From the NCBI RefSeq assembly GCF_902832845.1, contig NZ_CADFDB010000004.1, forward strand, positions 310,001 through 374,000: DNA of 64,000 bases, in the 5' to 3' direction. Shown piece after piece: positions 34,483 through 52,203 of the stretch. Below the pieces are notes generated by a model. The model did not search any database and was not told the origin of the DNA. It was given only the letters and a program-made list of their open reading frames with translations. This DNA comes from Burkholderia metallica. GTDB lineage: Bacteria; Pseudomonadota; Gammaproteobacteria; Burkholderiales; Burkholderiaceae. A program made the position numbers and the translations under genes. Within the stretch, counting starts at the first letter, position 1; every line of letters starts with the position of its first letter.

Positions 34483-34496
34483 GTCGTGACGGTCGT

Positions 34497-35457: not shown

Positions 35458-35919
35458 TCAGCGCTGCGCGGGCTTTTGCTTGCAGTGCCCGCACAGGCCG
35501 CTCAGCTCGACGACCTGATGGTGGACTTCGAAACCGTGCGCGGGCTCGCTCGCGGACAACTGCTTCGCGAGGTCGCCGCCGGGAATCTCGACGGTGTCGC
35601 CGCACGAATCGCAGATCAGGAACTGGCCTTCGTGCGGCACGCCGATCTCGCAGCATGCGAAGAACGCGTTCTTCGATTCGATCCGGTGGATGAAGCCGTG
35701 CTCGACGAGGAAATCCAGCGCGCGATAGACGGTCGTGGGCGGCACGCGGCCGCGCTGCGGTTCGAGTTCGGCGAGCAGGTCGTACGCGCCGATCGGGCGC
35801 TGCGCGGCCAGCACGCGTTCGTAGACCTGACGGCGCAACGGCGTCCACGCGAGCCCGTGCTCGGCGGCGAATGCGTCGGCCCGGGACAGCCGGGCGTCAT
35901 TGGACGATGAGGTAGCCAT
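35458..35919 (-). CDS. zur: Fur-family zinc uptake regulator
   Basis: 153 residues. Winged helix (TPLRRQVYERVLAAQRPIGAYDLLAEL, PPTTVYRALDFLVEHGFIHRIESKNAFFAC) resembling Zur more than Fur, and a C-terminal dimer domain with structural zinc cysteines CDSCG and CGHC. Represses zinc uptake when zinc-loaded. The first gene of the zur-znuACB run (46 bp before znuA), with a 24-bp candidate operator 30-53 bases upstream, so autoregulation of the whole operon is likely. The start at 35919 is chosen; the frame extends upstream without homology. Confidence 0.9.
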   Translation of the reverse strand: MATSSSNDARLSRADAFAAEHGLAWTPLRRQVYERVLAAQRPIGAYDLLAELEPQRGRVPPTTVYRALDFLVEHGFIHRIESKNAFFACCEIGVPHEGQFLICDSCGDTVEIPGGDLAKQLSASEPAHGFEVHHQVVELSGLCGHCKQKPAQR

Positions 35920-35948
35920 GGCGTGAAGCAGCGCGATGAAACAAAGTA

Positions 35949-35972
35949 CGGCGATGATATAACGTATCGCCG
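35949..35972. promoter_or_regulatory. Candidate Zur operator
   Basis: Arms CGGCGAT (35949-35955) and ATCGCCG (35966-35972) flank an A/T-rich centre that reads GTTATAT on the zur-coding strand, recalling the GTTATA half of known Zur boxes. The match to a full Zur consensus is partial, so this is tentative. Confidence 0.45.
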
Positions 35973-36132
35973 CGCCGTGCAGCGCGAATTCCCTTTCCGC
36001 CCTCGCTCCGTTCCCTTCATCACCGATTCGACCGCGCCGCACCGTGCGGGCTGCGCCTTGCCGGGCGCGCGCGGCGGCCCGTTGCCGTGCGTCGTTGTGC
36101 GGCGGCGCATCATAGAAAGCCGTCACGCCGCC

Positions 36133-36161
36133 TTGACAGCGCGAATCGCGTATCCGATCAT
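36133..36161 (+). promoter_or_regulatory. Promoter of the polyol dehydrogenase/ABC operon
   Basis: Consensus TTGACA (36133-36138), 17-base spacer, GATCAT -10 (36156-36161). The -10 is part of the left half of the operator that follows. The same layout drives the second polyol operon at 52203-52175. Confidence 0.8.
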
Positions 36162-36188
36162 TCGATCACTAACAGAGCAATTGATCGG
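36154..36188. promoter_or_regulatory. Polyol regulon operator, copy 1
   Basis: Two 14-bp half-sites in inverted orientation: CCGATCATTCGATC (36154-36167) and GAGCAATTGATCGG (36175-36188), with a 7-bp spacer. The half-site consensus shared with copy 2 is CGATCATT(C/T)GCTC. It covers the -10 and the expected transcription start, as a repressor site would. Confidence 0.8.
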
Positions 36189-36248
36189 CTAGCGAGCGTT
36201 CGCTCACCTCGCCAGCCGTCGTCAAGCAGAACGAACCGGAGACAGCCA

Positions 36249-37025
36249 GTGAGACTGGAAGACAAGGTCGCGATCCTGACGGGCGCCGCAAGCGGCATCG
36301 GCGAAGCGGTCGCGCAACGCTATCTGGACGAGGGCGCGCGCTGCGTGCTGGTCGACGTGAAGCCGGCGGACGGGTCGCTCGCGCGGCTCATCGAGGCGAA
36401 TCCCGGCCGCGCGGTGGCCGTCACCGCGGACGTTACGCGCCGCCACGACATCGAGCGCATCGTCGCCACGGCGATCGAGCGCTTCGGCGGCGTCGACATC
36501 CTGTTCAACAATGCGGCGCTGTTCGACATGCGCCCGCTCCTCGACGAATCGTGGGACGTGTTCGACCGGCTGTTCGCGGTCAACGTGAAGGGGCTGTTCT
36601 TTCTGATGCAGGCGGTCGCGCAGCGCATGGTCGAGCAGGGGCGTGGCGGCAAGATCGTCAACATGTCGTCGCAGGCCGGACGGCGCGGCGAGGCGCTCGT
36701 TTCGCACTATTGCGCGACCAAGGCGGCGGTGATCAGCTACACGCAGTCGGCCGCGCTCGCGCTCGCGCCGCACCGGATCAACGTGAACGGCATCGCGCCG
36801 GGCGTCGTCGATACCCCGATGTGGGAGCAGGTCGACGCGCTGTTCGCGCGCTACGAGAACCGGCCGCTCGGCGAGAAGAAGCGGCTCGTCGGCGAAGCCG
36901 TGCCGCTCGGCCGTATGGGCGTGCCGGGCGACCTGACGGGCGCCGCGCTGTTTCTCGCGTCGTCCGATGCCGACTACATCACCGCCCAGACGCTGAACGT
37001 CGACGGCGGCAACTGGATGAGCTGA
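36249..37025 (+). CDS. Short-chain polyol dehydrogenase (sorbitol/galactitol type)
   Basis: NAD-dependent oxidoreductase converting a hexitol to a ketose. 258 residues starting at GTG, with CGGAGACAG ahead. Cofactor loop GAASGIGE (residues 12-19), NNAA, catalytic Ser141 (NMSSQAG), Tyr154 and Lys158 (SHYCATK), and the C-terminal LNVDGGNWMS of sorbitol dehydrogenases such as SmoS. First gene of an operon with a PfkB kinase, a KbaZ-like protein and a polyol ABC transporter. Sorbitol to fructose or galactitol to tagatose are the likely reactions. Confidence 0.85.
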   Translation: MRLEDKVAILTGAASGIGEAVAQRYLDEGARCVLVDVKPADGSLARLIEANPGRAVAVTADVTRRHDIERIVATAIERFGGVDILFNNAALFDMRPLLDESWDVFDRLFAVNVKGLFFLMQAVAQRMVEQGRGGKIVNMSSQAGRRGEALVSHYCATKAAVISYTQSAALALAPHRINVNGIAPGVVDTPMWEQVDALFARYENRPLGEKKRLVGEAVPLGRMGVPGDLTGAALFLASSDADYITAQTLNVDGGNWMS

Positions 37026-37124
37026 CATGGCGCCGCTCGCCCGCACCAACCGCCGGCCGGCGCGTGACGCAGCGGCAGCGCCGCACGCCGCGGCTGCCGC
37101 CGTTGCTCGAGGAGGGGTCGCCTG

Positions 37125-38081
37125 ATGGCCGAGATCGTCGTCGCCGGCGAACTGCTGGCGGAATTCGTCGCCGCCGAGCGCGGCCAGGGTTTCGATACGC
37201 CGGGTCAGTTCGCGGGACCGTTTCCGAGCGGCGCACCGGCGATCTTCGCCGACCAGGCCGCACGGCTCGGCGCACGCGTCGCGTATGCGGGCTGCGTCGG
37301 CCGCGACGCGTTCGGCGACGCGATCGTCGCGCGGCTCGAACGCGACGGCGTCGACGTCGCGCGCATCCGCCGCGTCGCACGTCCGACCGGCACCGCATTC
37401 GTCGCGTATCGCGACGACGGCTCGCGCAGCTTCGTCTTCAGCCTGTCCACCAGCGCGGCCGCGTGCGTCGATGCATCCGACGTCGATACCGCGATGTTCG
37501 ACGGCTGCCGCTACTTCCACGTGATGGGCTCGTCGCTGACGAGCGAATCCGCGATCGCGGCGGTGCAGCGCGGCGTGATCGAGGCCGCGCGCGCCGGCGC
37601 GAAGGTGTCGTTCGATCCGAACGTGCGCCCCGAGATGCTGAGCTTCCGGCCGATGCGCGCGGCGCTCGACGAGATGCTCGCGGCCTGCCACCTGTTCCTG
37701 CCGAGCGAAGCCGACCTGCCGTTCTTCTGCGGACCGCAGCCGGCCGAGCGCGCGATCGCGGGCCTGCTCGCGACCCATCCGCTGCTCGAGCGCGTCGTGC
37801 TGAAACGCGGCGCGCAAGGCAGCGTCGCGTTCGACCGCGCGAATCGCGCCGAAGCGCCGGCGTTCGCGGTCGACGAAATCGACCCGACCGGCGCCGGCGA
37901 CTGCTTCGGCGGCACGCTGGTCGCGAGCCTCGTCGCAGGCGTGCCGATCGACGTCGCGCTGCGCCGCGCGAACGCGGCAGGCGCGATCGCGGTCACACGG
38001 CGCGGGCCGATGGAAGGCAACAGCAGCGCGGCCGAGATCGACCGTTTCCTGACCGAACGAGGTGTCGCATGTCCGGCCTGA
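37125..38081 (+). CDS. PfkB-family sugar kinase
   Basis: Ribokinase-fold kinase, 318 residues. N-terminal GELLAEFV, substrate-side PSGAPAIFADQAARLG, and the C-terminal signature DPTGAGDCFGG carrying the catalytic Asp; SFDPNVRPEM is typical of ketohexose/keto-deoxy sugar kinases. The neighbouring KbaZ-like protein, whose start overlaps this gene by 13 bases, suggests the substrate is D-tagatose or fructose, giving the 6-phosphate. A 99-bp gap separates it from the dehydrogenase gene. Confidence 0.82.
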   Translation: MAEIVVAGELLAEFVAAERGQGFDTPGQFAGPFPSGAPAIFADQAARLGARVAYAGCVGRDAFGDAIVARLERDGVDVARIRRVARPTGTAFVAYRDDGSRSFVFSLSTSAAACVDASDVDTAMFDGCRYFHVMGSSLTSESAIAAVQRGVIEAARAGAKVSFDPNVRPEMLSFRPMRAALDEMLAACHLFLPSEADLPFFCGPQPAERAIAGLLATHPLLERVVLKRGAQGSVAFDRANRAEAPAFAVDEIDPTGAGDCFGGTLVASLVAGVPIDVALRRANAAGAIAVTRRGPMEGNSSAAEIDRFLTERGVACPA

Positions 38082-39421
38082 CGACCTTCGCCGAACGCCC
38101 GCGCACCGCCCATGCGGACGCCGTGCTGCGGATGATCTTCGATGCGAACCGCGCGGATGCGCAGCGCGGCATCTATTCGATCTGCAGCGCGCACCGGCTC
38201 GTGCTGGAAGCCGCGTGCGAAGCCGCGCGCGCGGACGGTTCGCCGCTGCTGATCGAGGCGACCTGCAATCAGGTGAACCATCTCGGCGGCTATACGGGCA
38301 TGACGCCCGTCGATTTCCGCCGCGACGTCGACGCGATCGCCGCGCGTTGCGGGCTGGCGCCGTCGGCGCTCGTGCTCGGCGGCGATCATCTCGGCCCGAA
38401 TCCGTGGCGGCATCGCCGCGCGGCCGACGCGATGCGCGAAGCCGGCGCGATGGTCGCCGCGTACGTCGAGGCCGGCTTCGAAAAGATCCATCTCGATGCG
38501 AGCATGGCGTGCGCGGACGATCCCGCGCGGCTCGACGATCGCACGATCGCCGCGCGCGCGGCCGAGCTGTGCCGTGCGGCGGAAGAGGCGGCTGCGCGCG
38601 CCGGCATCGCGCCCGTCTACGTGATCGGCACCGAAGTGCCGACGCCGGGCGGCGAACTCGGCGGCAGCGACGGCGATGCGGCGATCGCGCGGATCGCGGT
38701 CACGCGCGCCGACAGCATCGCGGCGACGCTCGACGCGCACCGCCGTGCGTTCGCCGCGGCCGGGCTCGACGCGGCGTGGGCGCGCGTCGTCGCGATCGTC
38801 GCGCAGCCGGGCGTCGACTTCGACGATCGCCACGTGCTCGACTACGACAGCGCGAAGGCCGCGTCGCTCGGCGCGAGTATCCTGCAGACACCGCGCCTCG
38901 TGTTCGAAGCGCATTCGACCGACTACCAGACCGAGGGCGCGCTCGCCGCGCTGGTGCGCGACCACTTCGCGGTGCTGAAGGTCGGGCCCGCGCTGACGTT
39001 CGCGTTGCGCGAGGCGCTGTTCGCGCTGACCTTCATCGAGGATGCGTTGATCGGTGAGCCCGCGCAGCGCTCGCGGTTGCGCGACGTGGTCGACGCCGCG
39101 ATGCGCGCGCAGCCCGAGCACTGGGCGCCGTACTACCGCGGCGACGAGACCGAGCAGCGGCTCGCGCGCCAGTTCAGCTACAGCGACCGGATCCGCTACT
39201 ACTGGCTGCAGCCGGCCGTCGCGGCCGCGGTCGAGCAGCTGTTCGACAACCTTGCGCGGCAGGCGGTGCCGGAGACGCTCGTCGCGCAGTGGCTGCCGGA
39301 CGTGTATGCGGCATGCCGCGCGGGCGGGCTCGCCAGGGAGCCGCGCGCGTGGGTGCGCCACCGGATACGCGACGTGATCGCGCACTACGCGCGCGCGTGC
39401 GGAATGCAGCGGCCGGCATGA
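38069..39421 (+). CDS. KbaZ/GatZ-like protein, possible D-tagatose 6-phosphate 4-epimerase
   Basis: 450 residues of the family long named tagatose-bisphosphate aldolase non-catalytic subunit. TIM-barrel marks include LLIEATCNQVNHLGGYTGM, LGGDHLGPNPW, KIHLDASMAC, VIGTEVPTPGG and EAHSTDYQ. The catalytic partner KbaY/GatY is absent from this operon; fbaA at 3004 is an ordinary fructose-bisphosphate aldolase. From memory, orphan members beside a PfkB kinase were shown in Agrobacterium to epimerise tagatose 6-phosphate to fructose 6-phosphate, and the present context fits that role better. Start overlaps the kinase stop region by 13 bases. Confidence 0.78.
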   Translation: MSGLTTFAERPRTAHADAVLRMIFDANRADAQRGIYSICSAHRLVLEAACEAARADGSPLLIEATCNQVNHLGGYTGMTPVDFRRDVDAIAARCGLAPSALVLGGDHLGPNPWRHRRAADAMREAGAMVAAYVEAGFEKIHLDASMACADDPARLDDRTIAARAAELCRAAEEAAARAGIAPVYVIGTEVPTPGGELGGSDGDAAIARIAVTRADSIAATLDAHRRAFAAAGLDAAWARVVAIVAQPGVDFDDRHVLDYDSAKAASLGASILQTPRLVFEAHSTDYQTEGALAALVRDHFAVLKVGPALTFALREALFALTFIEDALIGEPAQRSRLRDVVDAAMRAQPEHWAPYYRGDETEQRLARQFSYSDRIRYYWLQPAVAAAVEQLFDNLARQAVPETLVAQWLPDVYAACRAGGLAREPRAWVRHRIRDVIAHYARACGMQRPA

Positions 39422-39479
39422 CGGGCCGCGAACGAAACGCAGTACCGACGACACTTCGAACAAACACAGGAGACATGCC

Positions 39480-40805
39480 ATGCAACGAAAGATGCTCGAT
39501 GCCGCCGCACGCTGTTTCGCCGGAGCCGCGCTCGCGACGGCGGCCTGCGCCGCGTCCGCCGGCACGGTGACGATCGCGACGCTGAACAACCCGGACATGA
39601 TCGAGTTGAAGAAGCTGTCGCCGGCGTTCGAGAAGGCGAACCCGGACATCAAGCTGAACTGGGTGATCCTCGAGGAGAACGTGCTGCGTCAGCGCGCGAC
39701 CACCGACATCACGACCGGCAGCGGCCAGTTCGACGTGATGGCGATCGGCACCTACGAGGCGCCGCAGTGGGGCAAGCGCGGCTGGCTCGCGCCGATCACG
39801 GGCCTGCCTGCCGACTACGACCTGAACGACATCGTGAAGACCGCGCGCGACAGCCTGTCGTACAACGGCCAGCTGTATGCGCTGCCGTTCTACGTCGAGA
39901 GCTCGATGACGTTCTACCGCAAGGACCTGTTCGCGGCGAAGGGGCTGAAGATGCCCGACCAGCCGACCTACGACCAGATCGCCGAATTCGCGGACAAGCT
40001 CACCGACAAGGCGAAGGGCACCTACGGGATCTGCCTGCGCGGCAAGGCCGGCTGGGGCGAGAACATGGCGTACGTGTCGACGGTCGTGAACACGTTCGGC
40101 GGGCGCTGGTTCGACGAGAACTGGAATGCGCAGCTCACGTCGCCCGAGTGGAAGAAGGCGATCACGTTCTACGTGAACCTGCTGAAGAAGAACGGCCCGC
40201 CGGGAGCGAGCTCGAACGGCTTCAACGAGAACCTGACGCTGACGGCCTCCGGCAAGTGCGCGATGTGGATCGACGCGACGGTCGCGGCCGGCATGCTCTA
40301 CAACAAGCAGCAGTCGCAGGTGGCGGACAAGATCGGCTTCGCGGCCGCGCCGGTCGCCGTCACGCCGAAGGGCTCGCACTGGCTGTGGGCGTGGGCGCTG
40401 GCCGTGCCGAAGACGTCGAAGCAGCAGGACGCCGCGCGCAAGTTCATCGCGTGGGCGACGTCGAAGCAGTACATCGAGATGGTCGGCAAGGACGAAGGCT
40501 GGGCGTCGGTGCCGCCTGGCACGCGCACGTCGACCTATCAGCGTGCCGAGTACAAGGCCGCCGCGCCGTTCTCGGACTTCGTGCTGAAGGCGATCGAGAC
40601 GGCCGACCCGAACGATCCGTCGCTGAAGAAGGTGCCGTACACGGGCGTGCAGTACGTCGGGATTCCTGAATTCCAGTCGTTCGGCACGGTGGTCGGCCAG
40701 TCGATCGCGGGTGCGGTGGCCGGCCAGATGACGGTCGATCAGGCGCTCGCCGCCGGGCAGGCCGCCGCCGATCGCGCGGTGCGCCAGGCCGGCTACAAGA
40801 AGTAA
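39480..40805 (+). CDS. smoE: Polyol ABC transporter substrate-binding protein
   Basis: Periplasmic receptor of the SmoE/MtlE family for sorbitol, mannitol and related polyols. 441 residues with a signal peptide ending near ASA; the mature protein begins GTVTIATLNNPDM and has QRATTDITTGSGQFDVM, FYVESSMTFYRKDLF, GKCAMWIDATVAAG and the ARKFIAWATSKQY of this cluster. AGGAGACATGCC precedes the chosen ATG at 39480; an out-of-frame ATG at 39475 is ignored. It lies 58 bp after the KbaZ-like gene, and the two permease genes follow. Confidence 0.9.
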   Translation: MQRKMLDAAARCFAGAALATAACAASAGTVTIATLNNPDMIELKKLSPAFEKANPDIKLNWVILEENVLRQRATTDITTGSGQFDVMAIGTYEAPQWGKRGWLAPITGLPADYDLNDIVKTARDSLSYNGQLYALPFYVESSMTFYRKDLFAAKGLKMPDQPTYDQIAEFADKLTDKAKGTYGICLRGKAGWGENMAYVSTVVNTFGGRWFDENWNAQLTSPEWKKAITFYVNLLKKNGPPGASSNGFNENLTLTASGKCAMWIDATVAAGMLYNKQQSQVADKIGFAAAPVAVTPKGSHWLWAWALAVPKTSKQQDAARKFIAWATSKQYIEMVGKDEGWASVPPGTRTSTYQRAEYKAAAPFSDFVLKAIETADPNDPSLKKVPYTGVQYVGIPEFQSFGTVVGQSIAGAVAGQMTVDQALAAGQAAADRAVRQAGYKK

Positions 40806-40904
40806 CGCGGCCCGCACCGTGCGCGATGGCGCACGGTGCGCGTCGTCGAAGCTGACAGGCGGGCAGGCTTTCGCGCCCGCGCATCAACCGGAGGGACTCC
40901 GATC

Positions 40905-41858
40905 ATGCGTCACCTGCGTCTTCCCCTGAGCCATGCTCACGCCCCGTCGGTCGGCGACGCGTCGTCGCCGCCGGGCGCGCCGCGTCGCGCGCGCGGCGGC
41001 GCGAGCTGGCTCGTCTCGCCGTCCGTCGCGGTGCTGCTGCTGTGGATGTCGATTCCGCTCGCGATGACGATCTGGTATTCGTTCTCGCGCTACAACCTGC
41101 TGAACCCGGACGTGAAGGGCTTCGCCGGGTTCGACAACTACCGCTTCCTCGCGACCGATCCGTCGTTCCTGCCCGCGATCTGGCACACGCTCGTGCTGAT
41201 CGGCGCGGTGCTCGCGATCACGGTGATCGGCGGCGTGCTGATGTCCGTGCTGTTCGACCGCAAGTTCTACGGGCAGGGCGTCGCGCGCCTGCTCGCGATC
41301 GCGCCGTTCTTCGTGATGCCGACGGTGTCCGCGCTGATCTGGAAGAACATGATCCTGCACCCGGTGTACGGGCTCGTCGCGACCGCGATGCGCGCGCTCG
41401 GGATGACGCCGATCGACTGGTTCGCCGATTACCCGCTCACCGCGGTGATCATCATCGTCGCGTGGCAGTGGCTGCCGTTCGCGTTCCTGATCCTGTTCAC
41501 CGCGATCCAGTCGCTCGACCAGGAGCAGAAGGAAGCCGCGCGCATCGACGGCGCGGGCCCGATCGCGATGTTCTTCTACATCACGCTGCCGCACCTGAAG
41601 CGCGCGATCGCGGTGGTCGTGATGATGGAGACGATCTTCCTGCTGTCGATCTTCGCGGAAATCTACACGACGACCGGCGGCGGCCCCGGCGACGCGACGA
41701 CCAACCTGTCATATCTGATCTACGCGCTCGGCCTGCAGCAGTTCGACGTCGGCCTCGCGTCCGCCGGCGGCATCATTGCCGTCGTGGTCGCGAACGTCGT
41801 GTCGTTCTTCCTCGTGCGGATGCTCGCGCGCAACCTGAAGGGGGAGTACGAGAAATGA
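40905..41858 (+). CDS. smoF: Polyol ABC transporter permease 1
   Basis: Inner-membrane permease of the MalF/SmoF type, 317 residues. A ~35-residue cytoplasmic lead rich in Pro/Arg/Ala is followed by six hydrophobic helices starting at WLVSPSVAVLLLWMSIPLAM. The ATPase-contacting EAA loop is EAARIDGAGPIAMFFYITLPHL. GGAGGGACTCC precedes the ATG. Its stop overlaps the next start in an ATGA junction, implying coupled translation of the two permeases. Confidence 0.92.
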   Translation: MRHLRLPLSHAHAPSVGDASSPPGAPRRARGGASWLVSPSVAVLLLWMSIPLAMTIWYSFSRYNLLNPDVKGFAGFDNYRFLATDPSFLPAIWHTLVLIGAVLAITVIGGVLMSVLFDRKFYGQGVARLLAIAPFFVMPTVSALIWKNMILHPVYGLVATAMRALGMTPIDWFADYPLTAVIIIVAWQWLPFAFLILFTAIQSLDQEQKEAARIDGAGPIAMFFYITLPHLKRAIAVVVMMETIFLLSIFAEIYTTTGGGPGDATTNLSYLIYALGLQQFDVGLASAGGIIAVVVANVVSFFLVRMLARNLKGEYEK

Positions 41859-42706
41859 GCGACCTGACCCTGGAAGGCCGGCGCACGCCGGCCGTGTTCG
41901 ACCTCGTGCGGCGCGCGCTGCCCGGCACGCTCGCGTGGCTGATCGCGCTGCTGCTGTTCTTCCCGATCTTCTGGATGGCGATCACCGCGTTCAAGACCGA
42001 GCAGCAGGCGTATGCGTCGACGCTGTTCTTCATGCCGACGCTCGACAGCTTCCGCGAGGTGTTCGCGCGCAGCAACTACTTCTCGTTCGCGTGGAATTCG
42101 GTGCTGATCTCGGCGGGCGTCACGGTGATCTCGCTGCTGTTCGCGGTGCCGGCCGCGTACGCGATGGCGTTCTTCCCGAACCACCGCACGCAGAAGGTGC
42201 TGCTGTGGATGCTGTCGACGAAGATGATGCCGTCGGTCGGCGTGCTCGTGCCGATCTACCTGCTGTGGAAGAACGCCGGGCTGCTCGATACCGTATCGGG
42301 CCTCGTGATCGTCTACACGCTGATCAACCTGCCGATCGCGGTGTGGATGACCTTCACGTACTTCAACGAGATTCCGAAGGACATCCTGGAAGCCGGACGC
42401 ATCGACGGCGCGTCGACGTGGCAGGAGATCGTCTACCTGCTGATGCCGATGGCGCTGCCGGGGCTCGCGTCCACCGCGCTGCTGCTGGTGATCCTGTCGT
42501 GGAACGAGGCGTTCTGGAGCATCAACCTGTCGAGCTCGAACGCGGCGCCGCTGACCGTGTTCATCGCGTCGTACTCGAGCCCTGAAGGGCTGTTCTGGGC
42601 CAAGCTGTCCGCCGCTTCGCTGCTCGCGGTCGCGCCGATCCTGATCGTCGGCTGGCTGTCGCAGAAGCAGCTCGTGCGCGGGCTCACGTTCGGAGCGGTC
42701 AAATGA
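41855..42706 (+). CDS. smoG: Polyol ABC transporter permease 2
   Basis: MalG/SmoG-type permease, 283 residues, six transmembrane segments beginning LAWLIALLLFFPIFWMAITAF, and the EAA loop EAGRIDGASTWQEIVYLLMPMALPG. Starts inside the stop of the first permease (ATGA) and ends in an identical ATGA overlap with the HAD phosphatase gene, so permeases and phosphatase are translationally chained. Confidence 0.92.
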   Translation: MSDLTLEGRRTPAVFDLVRRALPGTLAWLIALLLFFPIFWMAITAFKTEQQAYASTLFFMPTLDSFREVFARSNYFSFAWNSVLISAGVTVISLLFAVPAAYAMAFFPNHRTQKVLLWMLSTKMMPSVGVLVPIYLLWKNAGLLDTVSGLVIVYTLINLPIAVWMTFTYFNEIPKDILEAGRIDGASTWQEIVYLLMPMALPGLASTALLLVILSWNEAFWSINLSSSNAAPLTVFIASYSSPEGLFWAKLSAASLLAVAPILIVGWLSQKQLVRGLTFGAVK

Positions 42707-43386
42707 CGACGAACGTCCTGATCTGCGATTGCGACGGCGTATTGATCGACAGCGAGGCGGTGGCGGCCGACGTGCTCGTGCGCGAGCTCAATGCGCGCTG
42801 GCCGGGCATCGACGCGCGGCCGGCCGTGATGCCGCTGCTCGGGCTGCGCATCGAGCGCGTGCTGGCCGGCGCGGGCGAAGCGCTGGGCCGCACGCTGTCG
42901 AACGACGACGTCGCCGACATCCGCGCGGCGGTGGAGGACGCGGCCGTCAATGCGCCGATGGTCGACGGCATCGATGCGGCGCTGGCGGCGATCGAACTGA
43001 CGAAGGCGTGCGCGAGCAACAGCTACCGCGCGTACGTCGACGCGGCGCTCGCGCGCACCGGCCTCGCGCGCTTCTTCGGCGACCGGCTGTTCTGCGCGGA
43101 CGCCGTCGCGCGGCCGAAGCCGGCGCCGGACGTGTATCTCGCGGCCGCGCGCACGCTCGGCGTCGCGCCTGCGCAGTGCCTCGTGGTCGAGGACAGCGCG
43201 ACCGGTATCACAGCGGCCGCCGCGGCCGGCATGACCGTGCTCGGCTTCGTCGGCGGCGGGCATGCGTCGGCCGCGCAGATCGACGCGCTGCGCGGGATCG
43301 GCGCGCGTCACGTATTCGACGACATGCACGAGCTGCCCGGCTACGTCGCGCGCTGGCAGGCGACCGGCGCGGTGCTGCCGAACTAG
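42703..43386 (+). CDS. HAD-superfamily sugar phosphatase or phosphoglucomutase-like protein
   Basis: 227 residues. HAD motif I DCDGVLIDSE (Asp nucleophile and acid/base two residues later), motif II ASNS, motif III Lys in RPKPAPDVYL, motif IV VEDSATG, with a helical cap of beta-phosphoglucomutase type. Likely dephosphorylates a sugar or polyol phosphate, possibly clearing dead-end phosphates from the operon's kinases. It is wedged between permease and ATPase genes, linked to the permease by an ATGA overlap; 62 bp separate it from the ATPase gene. Confidence 0.85.
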   Translation: MTTNVLICDCDGVLIDSEAVAADVLVRELNARWPGIDARPAVMPLLGLRIERVLAGAGEALGRTLSNDDVADIRAAVEDAAVNAPMVDGIDAALAAIELTKACASNSYRAYVDAALARTGLARFFGDRLFCADAVARPKPAPDVYLAAARTLGVAPAQCLVVEDSATGITAAAAAGMTVLGFVGGGHASAAQIDALRGIGARHVFDDMHELPGYVARWQATGAVLPN

Positions 43387-43448
43387 CCACCCCGAATGAT
43401 TGCGCGCCGCGTTCGACGCGGCGCATCACGAACGAACGGAGACAGATC

Positions 43449-44558
<1,110 letters not shown>

Positions 44559-44584
44559 TGCGTCGGCACGTGCGCCTGCGGTGC

Positions 44585-45469
44585 TTAGAGGCGCAGGTGC
44601 CCGGCCACGTAGTCGACGAACGCGCGCAGCTTCGGCGTCGGATGGCGGCCTGACGGCCACAGTACGTAGAACGGCGTGCGGCTCTCGACGTGTTCGTCGA
44701 GCACCGTGCGCAGCGTGCCGTCGGCCAGCGCGTCATGTACGAAAAACTCGGGCAGGCATGCGATGCCGAGCCCGCGCAGCGCGAAGCACAGCCGTGTTTC
44801 CGCGTTGTTGCTGACCATCGATACCGGCACCTCCGGCGGTGTGCCGGCGCGCGACGCGCGCAACGGCCAGATCTCGAGCCGGCCGCTGCTGGGGAAGCGG
44901 TAGTGCAGGCAGCGGTGCCGCGCGAGATCGGCTGGCGTGAGTGGCGTGCCGTGCCGCTCGAGGTAGTCGGGCGACGCGACGAGGTGCTGGCGGAAATGGC
45001 CGAGCAGCCGCGACGACAGCCGCGAATCCGACGGTTGGCCGGTGCGCAGCACAGCGTCGAACCCTTCGTCGACCACGTCGACGAGCCGGTCGCTGAAATC
45101 GATGTCGAGCTCGATCTCCGGATACGCAGCCATGAAATCGGCGAGCACCGGCAGCAGCAGCGTGCCGATCGTCGGCAGGCTCACGCGCAGCCGCCCGCGC
45201 GGCGCTTCGGCGCTGTGCGTCAGTTCCTGCTCGGCCGCGTCGATCTCCGCGATCACGCGCCGGCACCGTTCGAGAAAGCGCGCGCCTTCGGCCGTCAGCG
45301 TGATGCTGCGCGTGCTGCGGTGAAACAGTCGCACGTTGAGGCGCGCTTCCAGGCGCGCGATGCGCTTGCCGATCGCCGAGGCCGACAGCCCGAGCGCGCG
45401 GCCGGCCGCGACGAAGCTGCGTGTTTCCGCGACCTGAACGAATACGACGAAACCGCCCAGATTTTCCAT
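44585..45469 (-). CDS. LysR-family regulator
   Basis: 294 residues. N-terminal winged helix (SFVAAGRALGLSASAIGKRIARLEARLNVRLFHRSTRSITLTAEG) followed by a type 2 periplasmic-binding-like effector domain starting at LRVSLPTIG. It is divergent from the esterase-like/MFS pair at 45583, and the 113-bp gap holds a perfect 14-bp palindrome. Closest in style to the DsdC/CrgA-like aromatic-response LysR proteins; effector unknown. Confidence 0.9.
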   Translation of the reverse strand: MENLGGFVVFVQVAETRSFVAAGRALGLSASAIGKRIARLEARLNVRLFHRSTRSITLTAEGARFLERCRRVIAEIDAAEQELTHSAEAPRGRLRVSLPTIGTLLLPVLADFMAAYPEIELDIDFSDRLVDVVDEGFDAVLRTGQPSDSRLSSRLLGHFRQHLVASPDYLERHGTPLTPADLARHRCLHYRFPSSGRLEIWPLRASRAGTPPEVPVSMVSNNAETRLCFALRGLGIACLPEFFVHDALADGTLRTVLDEHVESRTPFYVLWPSGRHPTPKLRAFVDYVAGHLRL

Positions 45470-45485
45470 GCAGGTTCCCGATTGT

Positions 45486-45499
45486 GGACATCGATGTCC
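45486..45499. promoter_or_regulatory. Palindrome in the LysR/esterase control region
   Basis: GGACATCGATGTCC is a perfect 14-bp palindrome lying 17-30 bases upstream of the LysR start; direct TCCGGA repeats follow to its right. Position fits an autoregulatory LysR site, though the classic T-N11-A is not obvious. Confidence 0.45.
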
Positions 45500-45582
45500 G
45501 GAGTGTCCGGAACTCTACCCCGGTTTTTCTTCACGCGTCGGCTCCCTACGATGGGCGTTCTTTCATCGTTCGAGGTCACGCC

Positions 45583-46779
45583 ATGTCATCCCTGCCTGTC
45601 ACCACCCACCGCGGAGAACCGGACGCCGCGCTGCGCGCGCGGCTCGACGCCGTGCTCGATCGCGCGCTGGCCGACGCGCGCGTGGTCGGCGCGGTCGTGC
45701 TGGTCGCCCGCGACGGCGAATTGCGTTATGCACGCGCGGCCGGGCTGGCCGATCGCGAAGCCGGCACGCCGATGCGCGAGGGCACGGTGTTCCGGCTCGC
45801 GTCGGTGTCGAAGCCGATCGTGACGGCCGCCGCGATGCGGCTGGTCGCGGCAGGCCGCATCGGGCTCGACGAGCCGGTCGCGCGCTGGTTGCCCGCGTTC
45901 ACGCCGACGCTCGCGGACGGCACGCCGGTGAACATCACGTTGCGGCATCTGCTGTCGCATACGGCCGGCCTCGGCTATCGCTTCTTCGAAGCGGACGGCG
46001 ACGGCCCGTATGCGCGTGCAGGCGTATCCGACGGGATGGATCGCGCGAGCCAGTCGCTCGCCGAGAACGTGCGGCGCATCGCCGGTGTGCCGCTGCAGTT
46101 CGCGCCCGGCACGTCGTGGGGCTACTCGCTCGCGACCGAAGTGGTGGGTGCGTTGATCGAAGCGGTCGACGGCCGCCCGCTCGCGCAGGCGGTGGCCGCG
46201 CTCGTCACGACGCCGCTCGGGATGACCGATACCGGATTCGTCGCGCCCGACGCCGCGCACGTCGCGACGCCTTACGTGAGCACGCCAGGCGCGCCGCGCC
46301 GGATGGCCGACGACGATCTCGTGCCGGTGTTCGACGGCACGGTCGGCATCCGCTTCGAGCCGGCGCGCGCGTTCGATGCCACCGCGTGGCCATCAGGCGG
46401 CGCGGGCATGGTCGGCACCGCACACGACTGCCTGACGCTGCTCGATACGCTGCGCACGGGCCTCGACGGCTGGCTCGCACCGCGCTGGATCGACGAGATG
46501 GCGCGGGTGCAGCCGGGCGCGCACGACTTGCCGGATGCGCCGGGATTCGGTTTCGGGCTCGGCTTTTCGGTGCTGCGCGATCCGGCGGCCGCGCAGTCGC
46601 CGGAGTCGGTCGGCACCTGGCGCTGGGGCGGCGCATACGGGCATGCGTGGTTCGTCGACCGTGCGGCCGGGCTGACGGTCGTCGCGCTGACCAATACGTT
46701 GTACGAAGGGATGCACGGGCGCATCGTCACCGACGTGCGCGATGCGGTGTATGGCGTCGACGACCGGAGCGCGGCATGA
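45583..46779 (+). CDS. Serine hydrolase of the beta-lactamase-like / family VIII esterase group
   Basis: 398 residues. Active-site SVSK near residue 80 (RLASVSKPIVTAA), Tyr in WGYSLATEVVG, and the C-terminal WRWGGAYGHAWFVD that replaces the KTG box of true class C beta-lactamases and is typical of EstB-like esterases. No signal peptide is seen from the chosen start MSSLPV, so it is probably cytoplasmic, another argument against a resistance enzyme. It overlaps the following MFS gene in an ATGA junction and is divergent from a LysR gene. Confidence 0.85.
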   Translation: MSSLPVTTHRGEPDAALRARLDAVLDRALADARVVGAVVLVARDGELRYARAAGLADREAGTPMREGTVFRLASVSKPIVTAAAMRLVAAGRIGLDEPVARWLPAFTPTLADGTPVNITLRHLLSHTAGLGYRFFEADGDGPYARAGVSDGMDRASQSLAENVRRIAGVPLQFAPGTSWGYSLATEVVGALIEAVDGRPLAQAVAALVTTPLGMTDTGFVAPDAAHVATPYVSTPGAPRRMADDDLVPVFDGTVGIRFEPARAFDATAWPSGGAGMVGTAHDCLTLLDTLRTGLDGWLAPRWIDEMARVQPGAHDLPDAPGFGFGLGFSVLRDPAAAQSPESVGTWRWGGAYGHAWFVDRAAGLTVVALTNTLYEGMHGRIVTDVRDAVYGVDDRSAA

Positions 46780-48023
46780 GCGAATGCGTATCCGCTTCCC
46801 CGTCCGTTTCCGTGTCGGGGGCCGACCGGGCTGCCGATTCTGCAGCCGGCTCGTCTGCACCGGGCCGCGCGCGCCTGCCCGTCGCGAACCTGCTCGCGCT
46901 TGCCACCGCCGGCTTCATCACGGTGCTCACCGAAGCGCTGCCGGCCGGCCTGCTGCCGCTGATGAGCGTCGACCTGCGCGTGACCGAGGCGCTGATCGGC
47001 CAGCTCGTGACCGTGTATGCGCTCGGCTCGATCGTCGCGGCGATTCCGCTCGTCGCCGCGACGCGCGCGATGCGCCGGCGCGGCCTGCTGCTCGCGGCGC
47101 TCGCCGGGTTCGTCGTGTCGAATGCGGTGACGGCCGCGTCGCCGTACTACGCGCTCACGCTGGCCGCGCGCTTCGTCGCCGGGATGTCGGCCGGGCTGCT
47201 GTGGGCGCTGCTGGCGGGCTACGCGAGCCGGCTGGTCGACCCGTCGCTGCGCGGCCGGGCGATCGCGGTCGCGATGCTCGGCATACCGGCAGCAATGTCG
47301 ATCGGCATTCCGGCCGGCACCGCTGTCGGCGCGACGTTCGGCTGGCGCGTCGCGTTCGCGGCCATCACGGTCGCGGCGCTCGCGCTGATCGGCTGGATCC
47401 GCTTGCGCGTACCCGATTACCCGGGGCAGCAGGCCGGCGCACGCGAGCCGGTGCTCGGCGTGATGACGCTGCCCGGCGTGCGGCCGGTGCTGACCGTGAT
47501 GTTCGCGTACGTGCTTGCGCACAACATGCTGTACACATACGTTGCGCCGTTTCTCGCCGGCGTGCGGATGGGCGCGCAGATCGATGCGGTGCTGCTGGTG
47601 TTCGGTATCGCGTCGCTCGCCGGCATTGCGCTGACGGGCGCCTGGATCGGCGCCGCGCAGCGACGCCTGACGCTCGCCAGCATCGCGCTGTTCGCGGTCG
47701 CGGCGGCGATGCTCGGCGCCGGTTCCGGAATGGTGATCGTCTACGTGGGCGTCGCGTTGTGGGGGCTCGCGTTCGGCGGCGCGCCGACGCTGTTCCAGAC
47801 CGCTGCCGCGAATGCGGCAGGGGAGTCGGCCGACGTCGCGCAATCGATGCTCGTGACGGTGTGGAATCTCGCGATCGCCGGCGGCGGCATCGCGGGCGGG
47901 ATGCTGCTCGGCGCGACCGGCGCGGGCGCGATTCCGTGGGTGCTCGTCGCGCTGCTGGCGGCTGCGTGGGTCGGCGCGTGGCGTGCGCGCCGCCATGCGT
48001 TTCCGGTGCCGCACGGGGCTTGA
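46776..48023 (+). CDS. MFS exporter, drug:H+ antiporter-1 type
   Basis: 415 residues, twelve predicted helices after a ~35-residue polar N-terminus. Motifs ALPAGLLPLMSVDLRVTEALIGQLVTVYALGSI, RFVAGMSAGLLWALLAGYASRLV and IGIPAGTAVGATFGWRVAF match the DHA1/AraJ-like sugar-efflux and drug-export group. Coupled by ATGA to the esterase-like gene, suggesting the pair modifies and exports one compound class. It converges on the SorC regulator gene with a 43-bp gap containing a GC dyad but no T-run. Confidence 0.88.
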   Translation: MSECVSASPSVSVSGADRAADSAAGSSAPGRARLPVANLLALATAGFITVLTEALPAGLLPLMSVDLRVTEALIGQLVTVYALGSIVAAIPLVAATRAMRRRGLLLAALAGFVVSNAVTAASPYYALTLAARFVAGMSAGLLWALLAGYASRLVDPSLRGRAIAVAMLGIPAAMSIGIPAGTAVGATFGWRVAFAAITVAALALIGWIRLRVPDYPGQQAGAREPVLGVMTLPGVRPVLTVMFAYVLAHNMLYTYVAPFLAGVRMGAQIDAVLLVFGIASLAGIALTGAWIGAAQRRLTLASIALFAVAAAMLGAGSGMVIVYVGVALWGLAFGGAPTLFQTAAANAAGESADVAQSMLVTVWNLAIAGGGIAGGMLLGATGAGAIPWVLVALLAAAWVGAWRARRHAFPVPHGA

Positions 48024-48066
48024 GCGTTCGACTGCCGCGCGCGGTGCGCCGTGCGCGGCTTCGGCG

Positions 48067-49023
48067 TCAGGCCGCTTTCGCGTCGAGCGCGGCGCGCGCG
48101 CAGGTTTCGTCGGTGACGAGCCCCGACAGCCAGCCGCCGCGCAATGCGGCGATCACCGCGTCGCGTTTCTTCGGGCCGCCGGCGAACGCGATCGTCGGGC
48201 GCTTCGGCGGCGTGGCGAGCGAGACGCTCGTCACGCGCGCACTCGTCGACACGGCGATCCGCGTGCCCTGCGCGTCGATCGGCACGCCGAGCAGCTCGGC
48301 CACCGCGCCGAGCGCGGTCATCTCGTCGCGCTCCTGTTCGGTGATGAAGCCGTCTTCGTAGAGCGGGCAGTGCGGGCCGATGTTGCCGATCCCGACGAAC
48401 GCGACGTCGGCCTGGCCCGACAGCGCCTCGACGATCCGGTACAGCCGGTGATTGCACCACTGCGCGCGCTCGGCGTCGCTGTCGGCGAACAGCGGCGCGG
48501 GCAGCAGGAAGTGCTTGCTGCCGGTTTTCTCGGAGATGTACTGCGCGACGTCGTAGCGGTTCGACGACCCGTCGGCCGCGATCGCGCCGACCATCGACAC
48601 GAGCCGGTGCTGCGGGCGATCGATCTGCGCGATCTGCGCGACCGCGGCCTTCAGCGTCCGGCCGCTGCTGACCGCGATCACCATCGGCCGCGTTTCGTTC
48701 AGGTAGCGCTCCATCACCTGCGCGCCCGCGACCGCGAGCTTGCGGTCGATCGCATCGGGCGCATCGGCATCGACGGGCACGACTTCGCACATCGCGAGGC
48801 CGTAACGCTTCGACAGCTGCGCGCCGAGATCGAGACAGTCGGCGAGCTGGTGGTCGACACGGACGCGGATCAGGTTCTTCTCGACCGCGAACGCGACGAG
48901 GCGCTGCGCGACCGGGCGCGAGACCTGCAGCTTTTCCGCGATTTCGTTCTGCGTGTCGCCCGCGACGTAGTAGAGCCACGCGGCACGCGTGGCGAGATCG
49001 AGTTTTTCTGAGGACTTGGACAC
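48067..49023 (-). CDS. SorC/DeoR-type sugar-responsive regulator
   Basis: 318 residues. N-terminal helix-turn-helix (TQNEIAEKLQVSRPVAQRLVAFAVEKNL, about residues 24-51) and a C-terminal SorC sugar-phosphate-binding domain (SSGRTLKAAVAQI, VGIGNIGP, DAQGTRIA, AFAGGPKKRDAVIAALRGGWLSGLVTDE). The GTG at 49023 gives the usual family length; an ATG at 49092 would add 23 residues translated through a run of nine C. Encoded last in the arabinitol operon and the only plausible regulator for the shared operators at 36154 and 52148. Inducer is probably a polyol-derived sugar phosphate. Confidence 0.87.
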   Translation of the reverse strand: MSKSSEKLDLATRAAWLYYVAGDTQNEIAEKLQVSRPVAQRLVAFAVEKNLIRVRVDHQLADCLDLGAQLSKRYGLAMCEVVPVDADAPDAIDRKLAVAGAQVMERYLNETRPMVIAVSSGRTLKAAVAQIAQIDRPQHRLVSMVGAIAADGSSNRYDVAQYISEKTGSKHFLLPAPLFADSDAERAQWCNHRLYRIVEALSGQADVAFVGIGNIGPHCPLYEDGFITEQERDEMTALGAVAELLGVPIDAQGTRIAVSTSARVTSVSLATPPKRPTIAFAGGPKKRDAVIAALRGGWLSGLVTDETCARAALDAKAA

Positions 49024-49149
49024 GATAGCGATTCGGTTTGGAGCTGGGGGGGGGCCGCCCCGCGGGCCGGCCGGCGGCCCGCATGACGGCATCCACTGTA
49101 CCGCATGTCGCGCGCGCGGCCAGGCGCCGGTGCGCGCGGCGGGCGGCGC

Positions 49150-50631
49150 CTACGCGAGCCGCGCGCGCGACGGTTCGTACAGCGGCCGCACGTGGCGGTA
49201 CAGCGCGCGGTACGCGTCGAGGCGTTCGCGCAGCCGCGCGTGGCGGCCGGCATCCGGCGCGTATTCGGCGCGCACCGGCGGCTTCGTCAGCACCGCATGC
49301 GGATCGCCGCCGACGGCCAGCCAGCCGAGCCGCGCCGCGCCGAGCGCCGCGCCCGTTTCGCCGCCGCCGTGCTGGCGCGTGCGCACGTTCAGCGCATCGG
49401 CGATCAGTTGCGCCCAGTACGCGCTGCGTGCGCCGCCGCCGATCAGCGACAACTGGTCGGTTTCGACGCCGGCCGCATGCAGCGCGTCGAGACCGTCGGC
49501 GAGGCCGAGCGTCACGCCTTCGAGCACCGCGTAGCCGAGATGCGCGCGTTCGGTCGCGTGCGTCATTCCGAAGAACGCCCCTTGCGCATACGGATCGTTG
49601 TGCGGCGTGCGTTCGCCGGACAGGTAGGGCAGGAACAGCGGCGCGGTCGCGAGCGCGTCGGCGTCGAGCGCCTCGACTTCGGCGAGCAGCGCGGGTTCGT
49701 CGGTGCCGGTCAGCTTGCAGACCCAGCGCAGGCAGCTCGCGGCCGACAGCACGACGCTCATCAGTTGCCAGCGATCGGGAATCGCGTGGCAGAACGCGTG
49801 CACGGCCGACGCGGGATTCGGCATGAAGCGGTCGCCGACCACGCTGAGCACGCCGGACGTGCCCAGCGACACGAAGCCGTCGCCCGCATGGGTCGCGCCG
49901 ATGCCGAGCGCGCTCGTCGCGTTGTCGCCGCCGCCGCCGGCCACCACGACGGCCTCCGACAGCCCGAGCTGGCGCGCGATGTCCGCGCGCAGCGTGCCGG
50001 ACGGCGCGTTGCCTTCGACGATGCGCGGCATCTGGTCGCGCGTCATCCCGCACGCGGCGAGCAGCGCGTCGGACCAGTCGCGGCGCGCGACGTCGAGCCA
50101 CAGCGTGCCGGCCGCGTCGGACGGATCGGATACTTTCGCGCCGGTCAGCCGGAACCGCAGGTAGTCCTTCGGCATCAGCACGCACGCGGTTGCGGCGAAG
50201 ACTTCCGGCTCGTGCTTCGCGACCCACAGCAGTTTCGGCGCGGTGAAGCCGGGCATCGCGAGGTTGCCCGCCAGTGCGTGGAGATCGGGCGCGCGTTCGG
50301 TGAGCAGCGCGCATTCGTCGGCGCTGCGCATGTCGTTCCACAGGATCGCGGGGCGCAGCACGCGATCGTCGCGGCCGAGCAGCACCGCGCCGTGCATCTG
50401 GCCCGAGAGGCCGATACCGCGCACGGCCGCGAACGCGTCGCGGTGCCGTTCGCGCAGCGCCGCGAGCGCGGCGAGCGTGCCTTGCCACCAGTCGTCCGGA
50501 TGCTGTTCGGCCCAGCGCGGATGCGGCCGCGACACGGTGAACGGCGAGCCGGCCGTGCCGACGACCGTGCCGTCCGGGGCGAGCAGCAGCACCTTCACTT
50601 CCGAGGTGCCGAGGTCGATGCCGAGGTACAT
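49150..50631 (-). CDS. xylB: Xylulokinase
   Basis: Phosphorylates D-xylulose to xylulose 5-phosphate, feeding the pentose phosphate pathway. 493 residues: GIDLGTSEVKVLLL, LSGQMHGAVLL, catalytic Asp in AGGGGDNATSALG, LPYLSGERTPHNDP and LIGGGARSAYWAQL. Lies 83 bp behind the D-arabinitol dehydrogenase gene, whose product would be D-xylulose, so the two make a complete arabinitol-to-xylulose-5-phosphate route. The SorC regulator gene follows on the same strand. Confidence 0.93.
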   Translation of the reverse strand: MYLGIDLGTSEVKVLLLAPDGTVVGTAGSPFTVSRPHPRWAEQHPDDWWQGTLAALAALRERHRDAFAAVRGIGLSGQMHGAVLLGRDDRVLRPAILWNDMRSADECALLTERAPDLHALAGNLAMPGFTAPKLLWVAKHEPEVFAATACVLMPKDYLRFRLTGAKVSDPSDAAGTLWLDVARRDWSDALLAACGMTRDQMPRIVEGNAPSGTLRADIARQLGLSEAVVVAGGGGDNATSALGIGATHAGDGFVSLGTSGVLSVVGDRFMPNPASAVHAFCHAIPDRWQLMSVVLSAASCLRWVCKLTGTDEPALLAEVEALDADALATAPLFLPYLSGERTPHNDPYAQGAFFGMTHATERAHLGYAVLEGVTLGLADGLDALHAAGVETDQLSLIGGGARSAYWAQLIADALNVRTRQHGGGETGAALGAARLGWLAVGGDPHAVLTKPPVRAEYAPDAGRHARLRERLDAYRALYRHVRPLYEPSRARLA

Positions 50632-50714
50632 GAGCGATCCGTTCCGTCAGTGGGGAGTCGCTACTTTAGCCGCGCGGCCGCACACGTGCCAAGGCAGGTT
50701 CGCCCGGATGCGCG

Positions 50715-52109
50715 TCAGTGCGCCGCGAGCCACGCATCGACGCGCGCGAGCCCGGCGCGTAGCGCGTCGACGAGCGCCGCGTTGCCGGCGAGCGAGCCCC
50801 ACAGCGCGCGGCTCGCGCACAGCGCGACGACCGGATCGTCGGCGGCGACGATCGCGCGCGCGGCGCCGTCGTCCATCACGCCGTCCTGGTACGCGTACGG
50901 CAACGCGCCGCGCGCCCAGCGTTCGAGAAAGCGCAGGAACAGCGCGGGCAGCACCGCGGTCGCGACCGGCGCCGCGCCGCGTGCGAACGATTCGACGAGC
51001 GTCGGCGCGATGAAGCCGGGAATCTTCGAGAAGCCGTCGGCCGCGACGCGCTGGTTCGTGTCGAGCACGTACGGGTTGCCGAAGCGTTCGAGCACGACGT
51101 CGCGGTAGCGCGCGAGATCGAGCGGGCTCGGCGTGAGGCACGGGATCACGTCCTGTGTCACGTAGTCGTGCGCGAAGCGGCGGATCGCCGCGTCGTGCGT
51201 GCCTTCGTGGATGTACGTGTGGCCCGCGAGCGTGCCGGCCCACGCGATGCAGCTGTGCGTCGCGTTGAGGATGCGGATCTTCGCTTCCTCGTACGGGTGC
51301 ACGTCGTCCACCAGTTCGGCGCCGGCCAGCTCCCAGCGCGGCCGGCCGGCCGCGAAACGGTCCTCGATCACCCACTGGATGAACGATTCGCCCATCACCG
51401 GGCATGCATCGTCGAAGCCGGTCGCCGCGAGCACGCGCTCGCGCACGTCGGCGGTCGGGCGCGGCGTGATGCGGTCGACCATCGCGCTCGGCGTCGCGAC
51501 GTGCGCATCGAACCACGCGAGCAGGTCTGCCTGCCCGCGCCGTTCGAGGAATTCGCGCATGCCCGCGCGAAAGCGCGCGCCGTTGTTGCGCAGGTTGTCG
51601 CAGCTTTGCAGCGTGAGCGGGCCCGCGCCGCGCCGCACGCGTTCGGCGAGCAGCGCCGCGAGCGCGCCGTACAGCGTCGTGCGCGCGCCCTGCAGGTCGG
51701 CGGCGAGATCGGCGTTCGCGATGTCGAGCCGGTTGTGTTCGTCGAGGTAGTAGCCGCCTTCGGTGACGGTAAACGACACGATCCGGCAGGCCGGATCGGC
51801 GCCGGCGTCGATCAGCGCCGCGAGGTCGATCGACCACGGCAGCACGCGCGTGATCGCGCGGATCGTCTCGTATGCGCGTTCGCCTTGCGGCGTGACGGTT
51901 TCGAGCGTGTAGGCGCCGTGCTGCGCGGCGAGCGCGTCCATCGTCGCGCGCATGTCGTCGCGGATGTTGCCGACGGCGAGCGACCAGCGCTCGTCGGCCG
52001 GCACGGCCGCGTTCACGCGATGCAGATACCACGCCTGGTGCGCGCGGTGAAACGAGCCCGCGCCGATGTGCAGCAGCACGGGCGTGCGGGCGGAGGGCGA
52101 AGCGCTCAT
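50715..52109 (-). CDS. dalD: D-arabinitol 4-dehydrogenase / mannitol dehydrogenase family
   Basis: 464 residues of the polyol-specific long-chain dehydrogenase family. N-terminal HIGAGSFHRAHQAWYLHR, TVTEGGYYLDEHN, QSCDNLRNNG, MVDRITP, and the catalytic Lys/Asn/His stretch EEAKIRILNATHSCIAW. The N-terminal wording is closer to Klebsiella DalD than to mannitol 2-dehydrogenase, and the xylulokinase neighbour supports arabinitol as substrate; mannitol to fructose cannot be excluded. AGGAGACACC precedes the ATG. First gene of the operon driven from 52203. Confidence 0.87.
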   Translation of the reverse strand: MSASPSARTPVLLHIGAGSFHRAHQAWYLHRVNAAVPADERWSLAVGNIRDDMRATMDALAAQHGAYTLETVTPQGERAYETIRAITRVLPWSIDLAALIDAGADPACRIVSFTVTEGGYYLDEHNRLDIANADLAADLQGARTTLYGALAALLAERVRRGAGPLTLQSCDNLRNNGARFRAGMREFLERRGQADLLAWFDAHVATPSAMVDRITPRPTADVRERVLAATGFDDACPVMGESFIQWVIEDRFAAGRPRWELAGAELVDDVHPYEEAKIRILNATHSCIAWAGTLAGHTYIHEGTHDAAIRRFAHDYVTQDVIPCLTPSPLDLARYRDVVLERFGNPYVLDTNQRVAADGFSKIPGFIAPTLVESFARGAAPVATAVLPALFLRFLERWARGALPYAYQDGVMDDGAARAIVAADDPVVALCASRALWGSLAGNAALVDALRAGLARVDAWLAAH

Positions 52110-52147
52110 CCGGTGTCTCCTGTTCGTGCCAGACTGTTCTGTCGAAT

Positions 52148-52182
52148 ACGATCATTTGCTCTTTGTGTGAGCGAATGATCGT
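52148..52182. promoter_or_regulatory. Polyol regulon operator, copy 2
   Basis: Half-sites ACGATCATTTGCTC (52148-52161) and GAGCGAATGATCGT (52169-52182) around a 7-bp spacer. The dyad extends to 52143-52187, giving 19-bp arms with one mismatch. Same half-site and spacing as 36154-36188. Confidence 0.85.
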
Positions 52183-52203
52183 ATTCGGGCGCGCGAAAGT
52201 CAA
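52175..52203 (-). promoter_or_regulatory. Promoter of the arabinitol operon
   Basis: Read on the minus strand: TTGACT (52203-52198), 17-base spacer, GATCAT -10 (52180-52175). The -10 lies in one operator half-site, exactly as in the promoter at 36133. Confidence 0.8.

Follow-up and report, generated by a model that had tools for sequence, protein, structure and literature searches.

Two convergent polyol operons of Burkholderia metallica carry the same regularly spaced palindromic boxes at their promoters, and we consider it likely that both operons, and with them the regulator gene itself, are controlled by a SmoC-like repressor of the SorC family encoded at the end of one of them. The operons lie in a stretch of 64,000 nucleotides (contig NZ_CADFDB010000004.1 of assembly GCF_902832845.1, positions 310,001 to 374,000), hereafter called the window, whose own numbering is used throughout. 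The first operon encodes a short-chain dehydrogenase/reductase (SDR), a PfkB kinase, a KbaZ-like protein and an ABC transporter; the products of the second are D-arabinitol 4-dehydrogenase (DalD), xylulokinase (XylB) and the SorC-family regulator. The operator unit is a 12-base-pair (bp) near palindrome, about GAKCAWWTGMTC, repeated at a step of 19 bp, with three units 5' of the SDR-PfkB-KbaZ-ABC operon and two 5' of dalD-xylB-sorC.

Box arrays at the two promoters

On the plus strand, the SDR promoter reads TTGACA, 17 bp, GATCATTCGATC, 7 bp, GAGCAATTGATC, 7 bp, GAGCGTTCGCTC (span 36133-36205). On the minus strand, the dalD promoter reads TTGACT, 17 bp, GATCATTCGCTC, 7 bp, GAGCAAATGATC (span 52203-52150). 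The elements are as follows.

36133..36138, plus strand: -35 hexamer TTGACA of the SDR operon promoter, read from the sequence and kept in 107 of 107 SDR promoters examined
36156..36167, plus strand: candidate SorC box A of the SDR promoter, GATCATTCGATC, whose first six bases are the presumed -10 GATCAT (36156-36161)
36175..36186, plus strand: candidate SorC box B of the SDR promoter, GAGCAATTGATC, 19 bp from box A
36194..36205, plus strand: candidate SorC box C of the SDR promoter, GAGCGTTCGCTC, 19 bp from box B
52150..52161, minus strand: candidate SorC box B of the dalD promoter, GAGCAAATGATC, the pair being present in 62 of 62 Burkholderia loci
52169..52180, minus strand: candidate SorC box A of the dalD promoter, GATCATTCGCTC, overlapping the presumed -10 (52180-52175)
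52198..52203, minus strand: -35 hexamer TTGACT of the dalD promoter, TTGACT in 62 of 62 Burkholderia loci

The initial annotation had described two copies of one promoter-operator design, and direct reading bears out their coordinates and strands, the hexamer TTGAC(A/T) followed by a 17-bp spacer and GATCAT, and the inverted arms 7 bp apart, placed alike relative to the -10 at both sites. The half-site given there, CGATCATT(C/T)GCTC, fits in part: the second site matches it strictly, whereas the first does not, its arms being CGATCATTCGATC on the left and GAGCAATTGATCG on the right. We reject this 14-bp half-site as the operator unit, because each arm is a 12-bp near palindrome of its own and because a third box, overlooked at 36194-36205, repeats the unit at the 19-bp step.

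Both promoter-operator copies are real, far beyond chance expectation. The strict dyad pattern matches once in the window, at the second site, and never in 100 shuffles. A second pattern, to which both sites conform (26 specified positions around N7), has just two matches in the genome (7.55 Mb, 37 contigs) when up to three mismatches are allowed, and the reversed pattern, used as a control, has none there at the same threshold. The regulon appears to be smaller than first allowed, as the genome contains no further site at up to three mismatches, a genome-wide scan for weaker sites not having been made. When every offset was scored with a symmetrised matrix, the mean scores at the boxes were 11.9 to 16.3, versus -13.2 and -14.1 (SDR) and -10.9 and -16.2 (dalD) at offsets -38 and +38, two steps away from the pair, in Burkholderia, and no fourth box was seen.

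A further element, approximately CAT-GAAA, is common to both promoters, at 36110-36119 on the plus strand and 52226-52219 on the minus strand (CATCGAAA at dalD), its GAAA starting 18 bp (SDR) or 19 bp (dalD) 5' of the -35. It is kept across the genus, the dalD copy more strongly, and is possibly an upstream promoter element or an activator site.

Conservation and spread of the boxes

The dyads are conserved in related genomes, an outcome that the initial annotation had named as support in a pattern search across Burkholderia: 63 of 65 genus genomes have matches, and 62 of 65 have a close SorC orthologue. In two near-complete genomes (G016 and G040, 99 and 100% complete) the sites are absent and neither SorC nor DalD has a match; the DalD search of the site-less genomes was run without a positive control, and the dalD gene itself was found in 62 Burkholderia loci. 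With these counts and the joint absence, the earlier proposal of a single SorC-controlled regulon is well supported at the level of sequence.

We compared two sets of loci: the own locus plus the SorC neighbourhood (10 to 20 kb) in each of the 61 other SorC-bearing Burkholderia genomes, and 53 loci from near relatives (mostly Paraburkholderia, some Burkholderia sp. and one Trinickia). In these bacteria, the SDR and dalD operons are convergent, each with its own box array. The dalD pair is present in 62/62 Burkholderia loci and the SDR site in 59/59, the SDR gene lying outside the fetched stretch in three loci (L041, L142, and L144). Three boxes at 19+19 bp, with TTGACA 17 bp 5' of box A, occur in 59/59 Burkholderia and 48/48 near-relative SDR promoters, and TTGACA-17-GATCAT precedes the three boxes in all 107 SDR promoters examined, a tally anchored on the three boxes. 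Five near-relative loci, in which the sequence available did not include the SDR gene or its 5' region, stand outside this tally; one of them, L090, duplicates the contig of L041. Of the 49 near-relative loci with dalD, 48 carry the dalD pair (L090 being counted), and the 49th, L075, contains only the end of the gene; the -35 hexamer of these 48 is TTGACT in 45 and TTGACA in 3. The distance from the dalD boxes to the start codon ranges from 62 to 332 bp among the loci listed, with the box step constant at 19, and the two promoters are unequal in box number in each locus examined for both.

In L142 (genome G049), the SDR gene lies beyond the 20 kb fetched, the contig continues and the genome has two sites; the two operons may be further apart there.

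The arms have a mean information of 1.84 (SDR) and 1.89 (dalD) bits per column, compared to 1.06 and 1.22 in the 7-bp gap. The 45 bp upstream, which include the -35 and a second conserved element, reach 1.36 (SDR) and 1.55 (dalD), and the 40 bp downstream 1.16 for SDR, where box C is included, and 0.38 for dalD.

Relatives of the SorC protein at E <=1e-60 occur both in the order (10 of 300 genomes) and in the phylum (34 of 299). We scanned 26 loci from outside the family (six from other families of the order and 20 of 31 further phylum loci) over the whole locus, with a box matrix made from Burkholderia only and spacings of 12 to 30 bp. The best pair spacing was 19 bp in 20 of these 26 loci versus 10 of 260 shuffles, and the best-pair score exceeded 15 in 17 loci and was at least 20 in 13, a value reached by one of the 260 shuffles (shuffled mean 8.6, largest 20.0). 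An earlier scan of shorter loci, which overlap the 26-locus set, had given 19 as the best spacing in 27/33. In all six loci from other families of the order, a paired box occupies the intergenic gap that separates sorC from a single polyol operon. More generally, a 19-bp pair scoring above 15 is located beside sorC, 5' of the adjoining operon, or 5' of HAD-sorC in 6/6 order loci and 11/20 other Pseudomonadota loci, placement being read relative to mapped genes only, so that other genes may occur in those loci.

We also picked six plasmid records among the matches listed (40 of 171). In 6/6 the pair is located within the gap 5' of the solute-binding protein gene or of HAD-sorC, with scores of 21.0, 12.9, 18.9, 15.9, 17.9, and 15.0, and spacing 19 alone ranks first in four. 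Sinorhizobium meliloti Ak57 (L226) shows a 19-bp pair at 11083 with a score of 21.0, in smo gene order and in a record titled pSymB. Relatives of the SorC protein that are about 39-42% identical are also carried by plasmids of Klebsiella, Citrobacter, Enterobacter, and E. coli (H4-H8, H22, H23, H25, H39).

The SorC-family regulator and its probable mode of action

The regulator bears the SorC-family C-terminal sugar-binding domain PF04198 (178.5 bits, cut-off 27) and is the only PF04198 protein above the cut-off in the genome, a second match falling below it. No Pfam helix-turn-helix (HTH) model reached its cut-off on this protein; its residues 27-79 match the DeoR chain 7bhy (E 5.9e-8), which corresponds to an N-terminal DeoR-type HTH. 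Among the matches listed, the recognition-helix motif SRxxxQR is found in 40/40 relatives and QRL in 39/40. The protein aligns with LsrR and DeoR structures over nearly its full length, from about residue 30 to 336, and stays below the cut-offs of the LsrR equivalog model NF011947 (124.9 bits, cut-off 486) and the Bacillus DeoR equivalog model NF053881 (118.1 bits, cut-off 420). Its nearest Burkholderia relatives are 96-98% identical. The linkage typical of a SmoC-type polyol repressor is found here, with smo-type transporter and polyol dehydrogenase genes adjoining.

The residue before QR is V in six relatives (L215, L217, L218, L222, L223, and L225), five of which are without a 19-bp pair scoring above 15; such a pair is found in 16/20 rows with A versus 1/6 rows with V. 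A changed DNA specificity is a possible meaning of this V. The link was noticed post hoc on kin sequences and is not used as evidence.

We compared the locus with four known systems. The arabinitol, sorbitol, and mannitol pathways were reconstructed in PMC5507952. In S. meliloti, the smo (sorbitol mannitol oxidation) operon is constitutive in a smoC mutant and induced by sorbitol in the wild type (PMC10433430). SmoC belongs to the same regulator family (41.9% identical in the S. meliloti record), its gene adjoins genes for an ABC transporter, L-iditol-type and mannitol-type dehydrogenases, a HAD protein, and a sugar kinase, and in that record the genes for the regulator and the solute-binding protein have a 19-bp box pair between them. 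Nevertheless, S. meliloti has one operon with one pair, whereas the present locus has two convergent operons with two and three boxes, and the PfkB and KbaZ-like genes are extra in Burkholderia.

The SorC-family proteins DeoR and CggR of Bacillus subtilis bind two-part operators as tetramers, i.e. dimers of dimers (PMC11229326). DeoR matches the regulator over residues 28-336 (8r7y, E 4.2e-26); its palindromic operator half is similar in size, and in solution it forms a complex with the full operator and none with the single parts by size-exclusion (PMC11229326). Its operator is, however, asymmetric, 39 bp long and located at -60 to -21 (PMC11229326), whereas here regular boxes run downstream from the presumed -10. 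The operator of CggR also consists of two palindromic halves, whose centres are by our count about 20 bp apart, but it differs in sequence, lies at +32 to +77, and is bound by another type of DNA-binding domain (PMC11229326). LsrR of Escherichia coli, likewise a tetramer (PMC11229326), gives the best match to a solved structure (4go1, E 2.7e-28). In contrast, the SorC protein falls well under the NCBIfam LsrR cut-off given above. LsrR also controls other genes.

By analogy with the studied SorC-family complexes, each 12-bp palindrome would be the site of one DNA-binding dimer, and one tetramer would hold two palindromes, which their 19-bp step places on almost one side of the helix. At both promoters the array starts on the presumed -10 and covers the start region, and a bound tetramer would therefore block RNA polymerase, which is the simplest reading of the box placement. 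A sugar alcohol or one of its breakdown products would bind the sugar-binding domain and release the repressor. The regulator, encoded by the last gene of the dalD operon, would also control its own synthesis. In the six loci from other families of the order, a single operon next to a divergent sorC has the candidate operator in the common gap. The unequal number of boxes suggests that the two operons differ in the strength or the order of their response.

Several points weigh against control of both operons by such a repressor. Three boxes do not fit a simple model with one tetramer. The -10 consensus is TATAAT, and GATCAT, which agrees with it at 4/6 positions, is a weak -10. The best spacing is other than 19 in 6/26 loci outside the family (L215 to L219 and L222), and among the 20 loci with spacing 19, three score below 15 and seven below the largest shuffled value of 20.0. 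In two plasmid records, spacing 19 is tied with 23 (L227) or comes third (L229). The related regulator EryD has been reported to act both ways (PMC10433430). The S. meliloti stretch CP090106.1 is titled pSymB, whereas the published smo locus is chromosomal (PMC10433430), and the link to smo therefore rests on gene order. Finally, in one incomplete genome (G057, 82% complete) a single site is found, and neither SorC nor DalD has a match.

The SorC protein might bind the boxes and mostly activate, or activate as well as repress, for which EryD provides a precedent. We regard this as unlikely here: box A sits on the presumed -10 and the rest lies downstream, where a block is likelier than recruitment, and TTGACA is the consensus -35. 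SmoC of S. meliloti, moreover, acts negatively (PMC10433430).

The boxes might also be read by another regulator, for instance a flanking LysR-type protein, with SorC as a bystander. Two LysR-type genes near the operons and the incomplete genome with a site and no SorC match speak for this. It nevertheless appears quite improbable, given that 19-bp pairs are tied to sorC, its operon, or HAD-sorC in the loci counted above, that sites and SorC are jointly missing from two near-complete genomes, and that regular palindromes suit the two-part operators of the SorC family (PMC11229326). With GATCAT as the -10, boxes B and C would form part of the 5' leader, but a role of the inverted repeats as a leader hairpin in the transcript is very unlikely, as box A would contain the -10 and hence not be wholly transcribed, and as the dalD box-to-start distance varies while the 19-bp step holds.

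Beyond the SmoC-like repressor proposed for this locus, we think it possible rather than probable that the 12-bp/19-bp arrangement is a SorC-family code common to SmoC-like polyol regulators in much of the Pseudomonadota, and that at the three-box array of the Burkholderiaceae transporter promoter the tetramer chooses between the registers A-B and B-C, or a second dimer binds, so that transporter and arabitol genes would respond at different regulator levels.

Earlier work had already described the SorC family, the two-part operators to which it binds, and the polyol locus. No account of the 12-bp box, the 19-bp-step code, its spread, or the three-box promoter was found in the open-access literature searched, a scope outside which RegPrecise entries, supplements, and subscription papers lie, and none of the passages of PMC11229326, PMC5507952, PMC10433430, and PMC4746261 describes it. 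Few SorC-family operators have been worked out, and the structural study of the family rests on two Bacillus proteins (PMC11229326). The present boxes offer a clear and testable candidate operator for the polyol branch, tied to a type of regulator with a known mutant phenotype, and a natural pair of two-box and three-box promoters under one proposed regulator. They could mark sugar-alcohol regulons for annotation in Burkholderia and its relatives, and are a possible source of polyol-inducible promoters.

Genes of the locus

The genes of the two operons are listed below with the models or domains on which their assignment is based.

36249..37025, plus strand: SDR dehydrogenase, L-iditol 2-dehydrogenase type (SmoS-like); NCBIfam NF005472, 479.2 bits, cut-off 338
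37125..38081, plus strand: PfkB kinase (PF00294), nearest to the tagatose kinase model NF049991, 332.7 bits, below the cut-off of 420
38069..39421, plus strand: GatZ/KbaZ-like protein, start codon unsettled; PF08013, 604.8 bits
39480..40805, plus strand: ABC transporter solute-binding protein; PF01547
40836..41858, plus strand: ABC transporter permease 1; PF00528 (open reading frame as listed, the start probably lying further in)
41855..42706, plus strand: ABC transporter permease 2, from its reading frame and from orthologues adjoining permease 1 in relatives only
42703..43386, plus strand: HAD-family phosphatase; PF00702
43449..44558, plus strand: ABC transporter ATPase; PF00005, PF17912, PF08402
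48067..49092, minus strand: SorC-family regulator, last gene of the dalD operon; PF04198, with the score given above
49150..50631, minus strand: xylulokinase; TIGR01312, 558 bits, cut-off 380.25
50715..52109, minus strand: D-arabinitol 4-dehydrogenase (DalD); NF043014, 744.8 bits, cut-off 600

The genes between and around the operons are the following.

33592-34554: ABC ATPase gene, near the Fur-family gene
35458-36126, minus strand: Fur-family gene (PF01475), transcribed away from the SDR promoter, with a short common gap
44585-45469, minus strand: LysR-type regulator, between the two polyol operons
45421-46779, plus strand: beta-lactamase-family hydrolase, between the two polyol operons
ending at 52322, minus strand: second LysR-type regulator, flanking the locus

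The gap between the ATPase gene and sorC ranges from about 0.2 to 5 kb across the Burkholderia loci compared. The PfkB and KbaZ-like genes (37125-39421) have no match above 60% identity in 6 of 59 Burkholderia loci and none above 38% in the near-relative loci, and the operator is retained in both cases.

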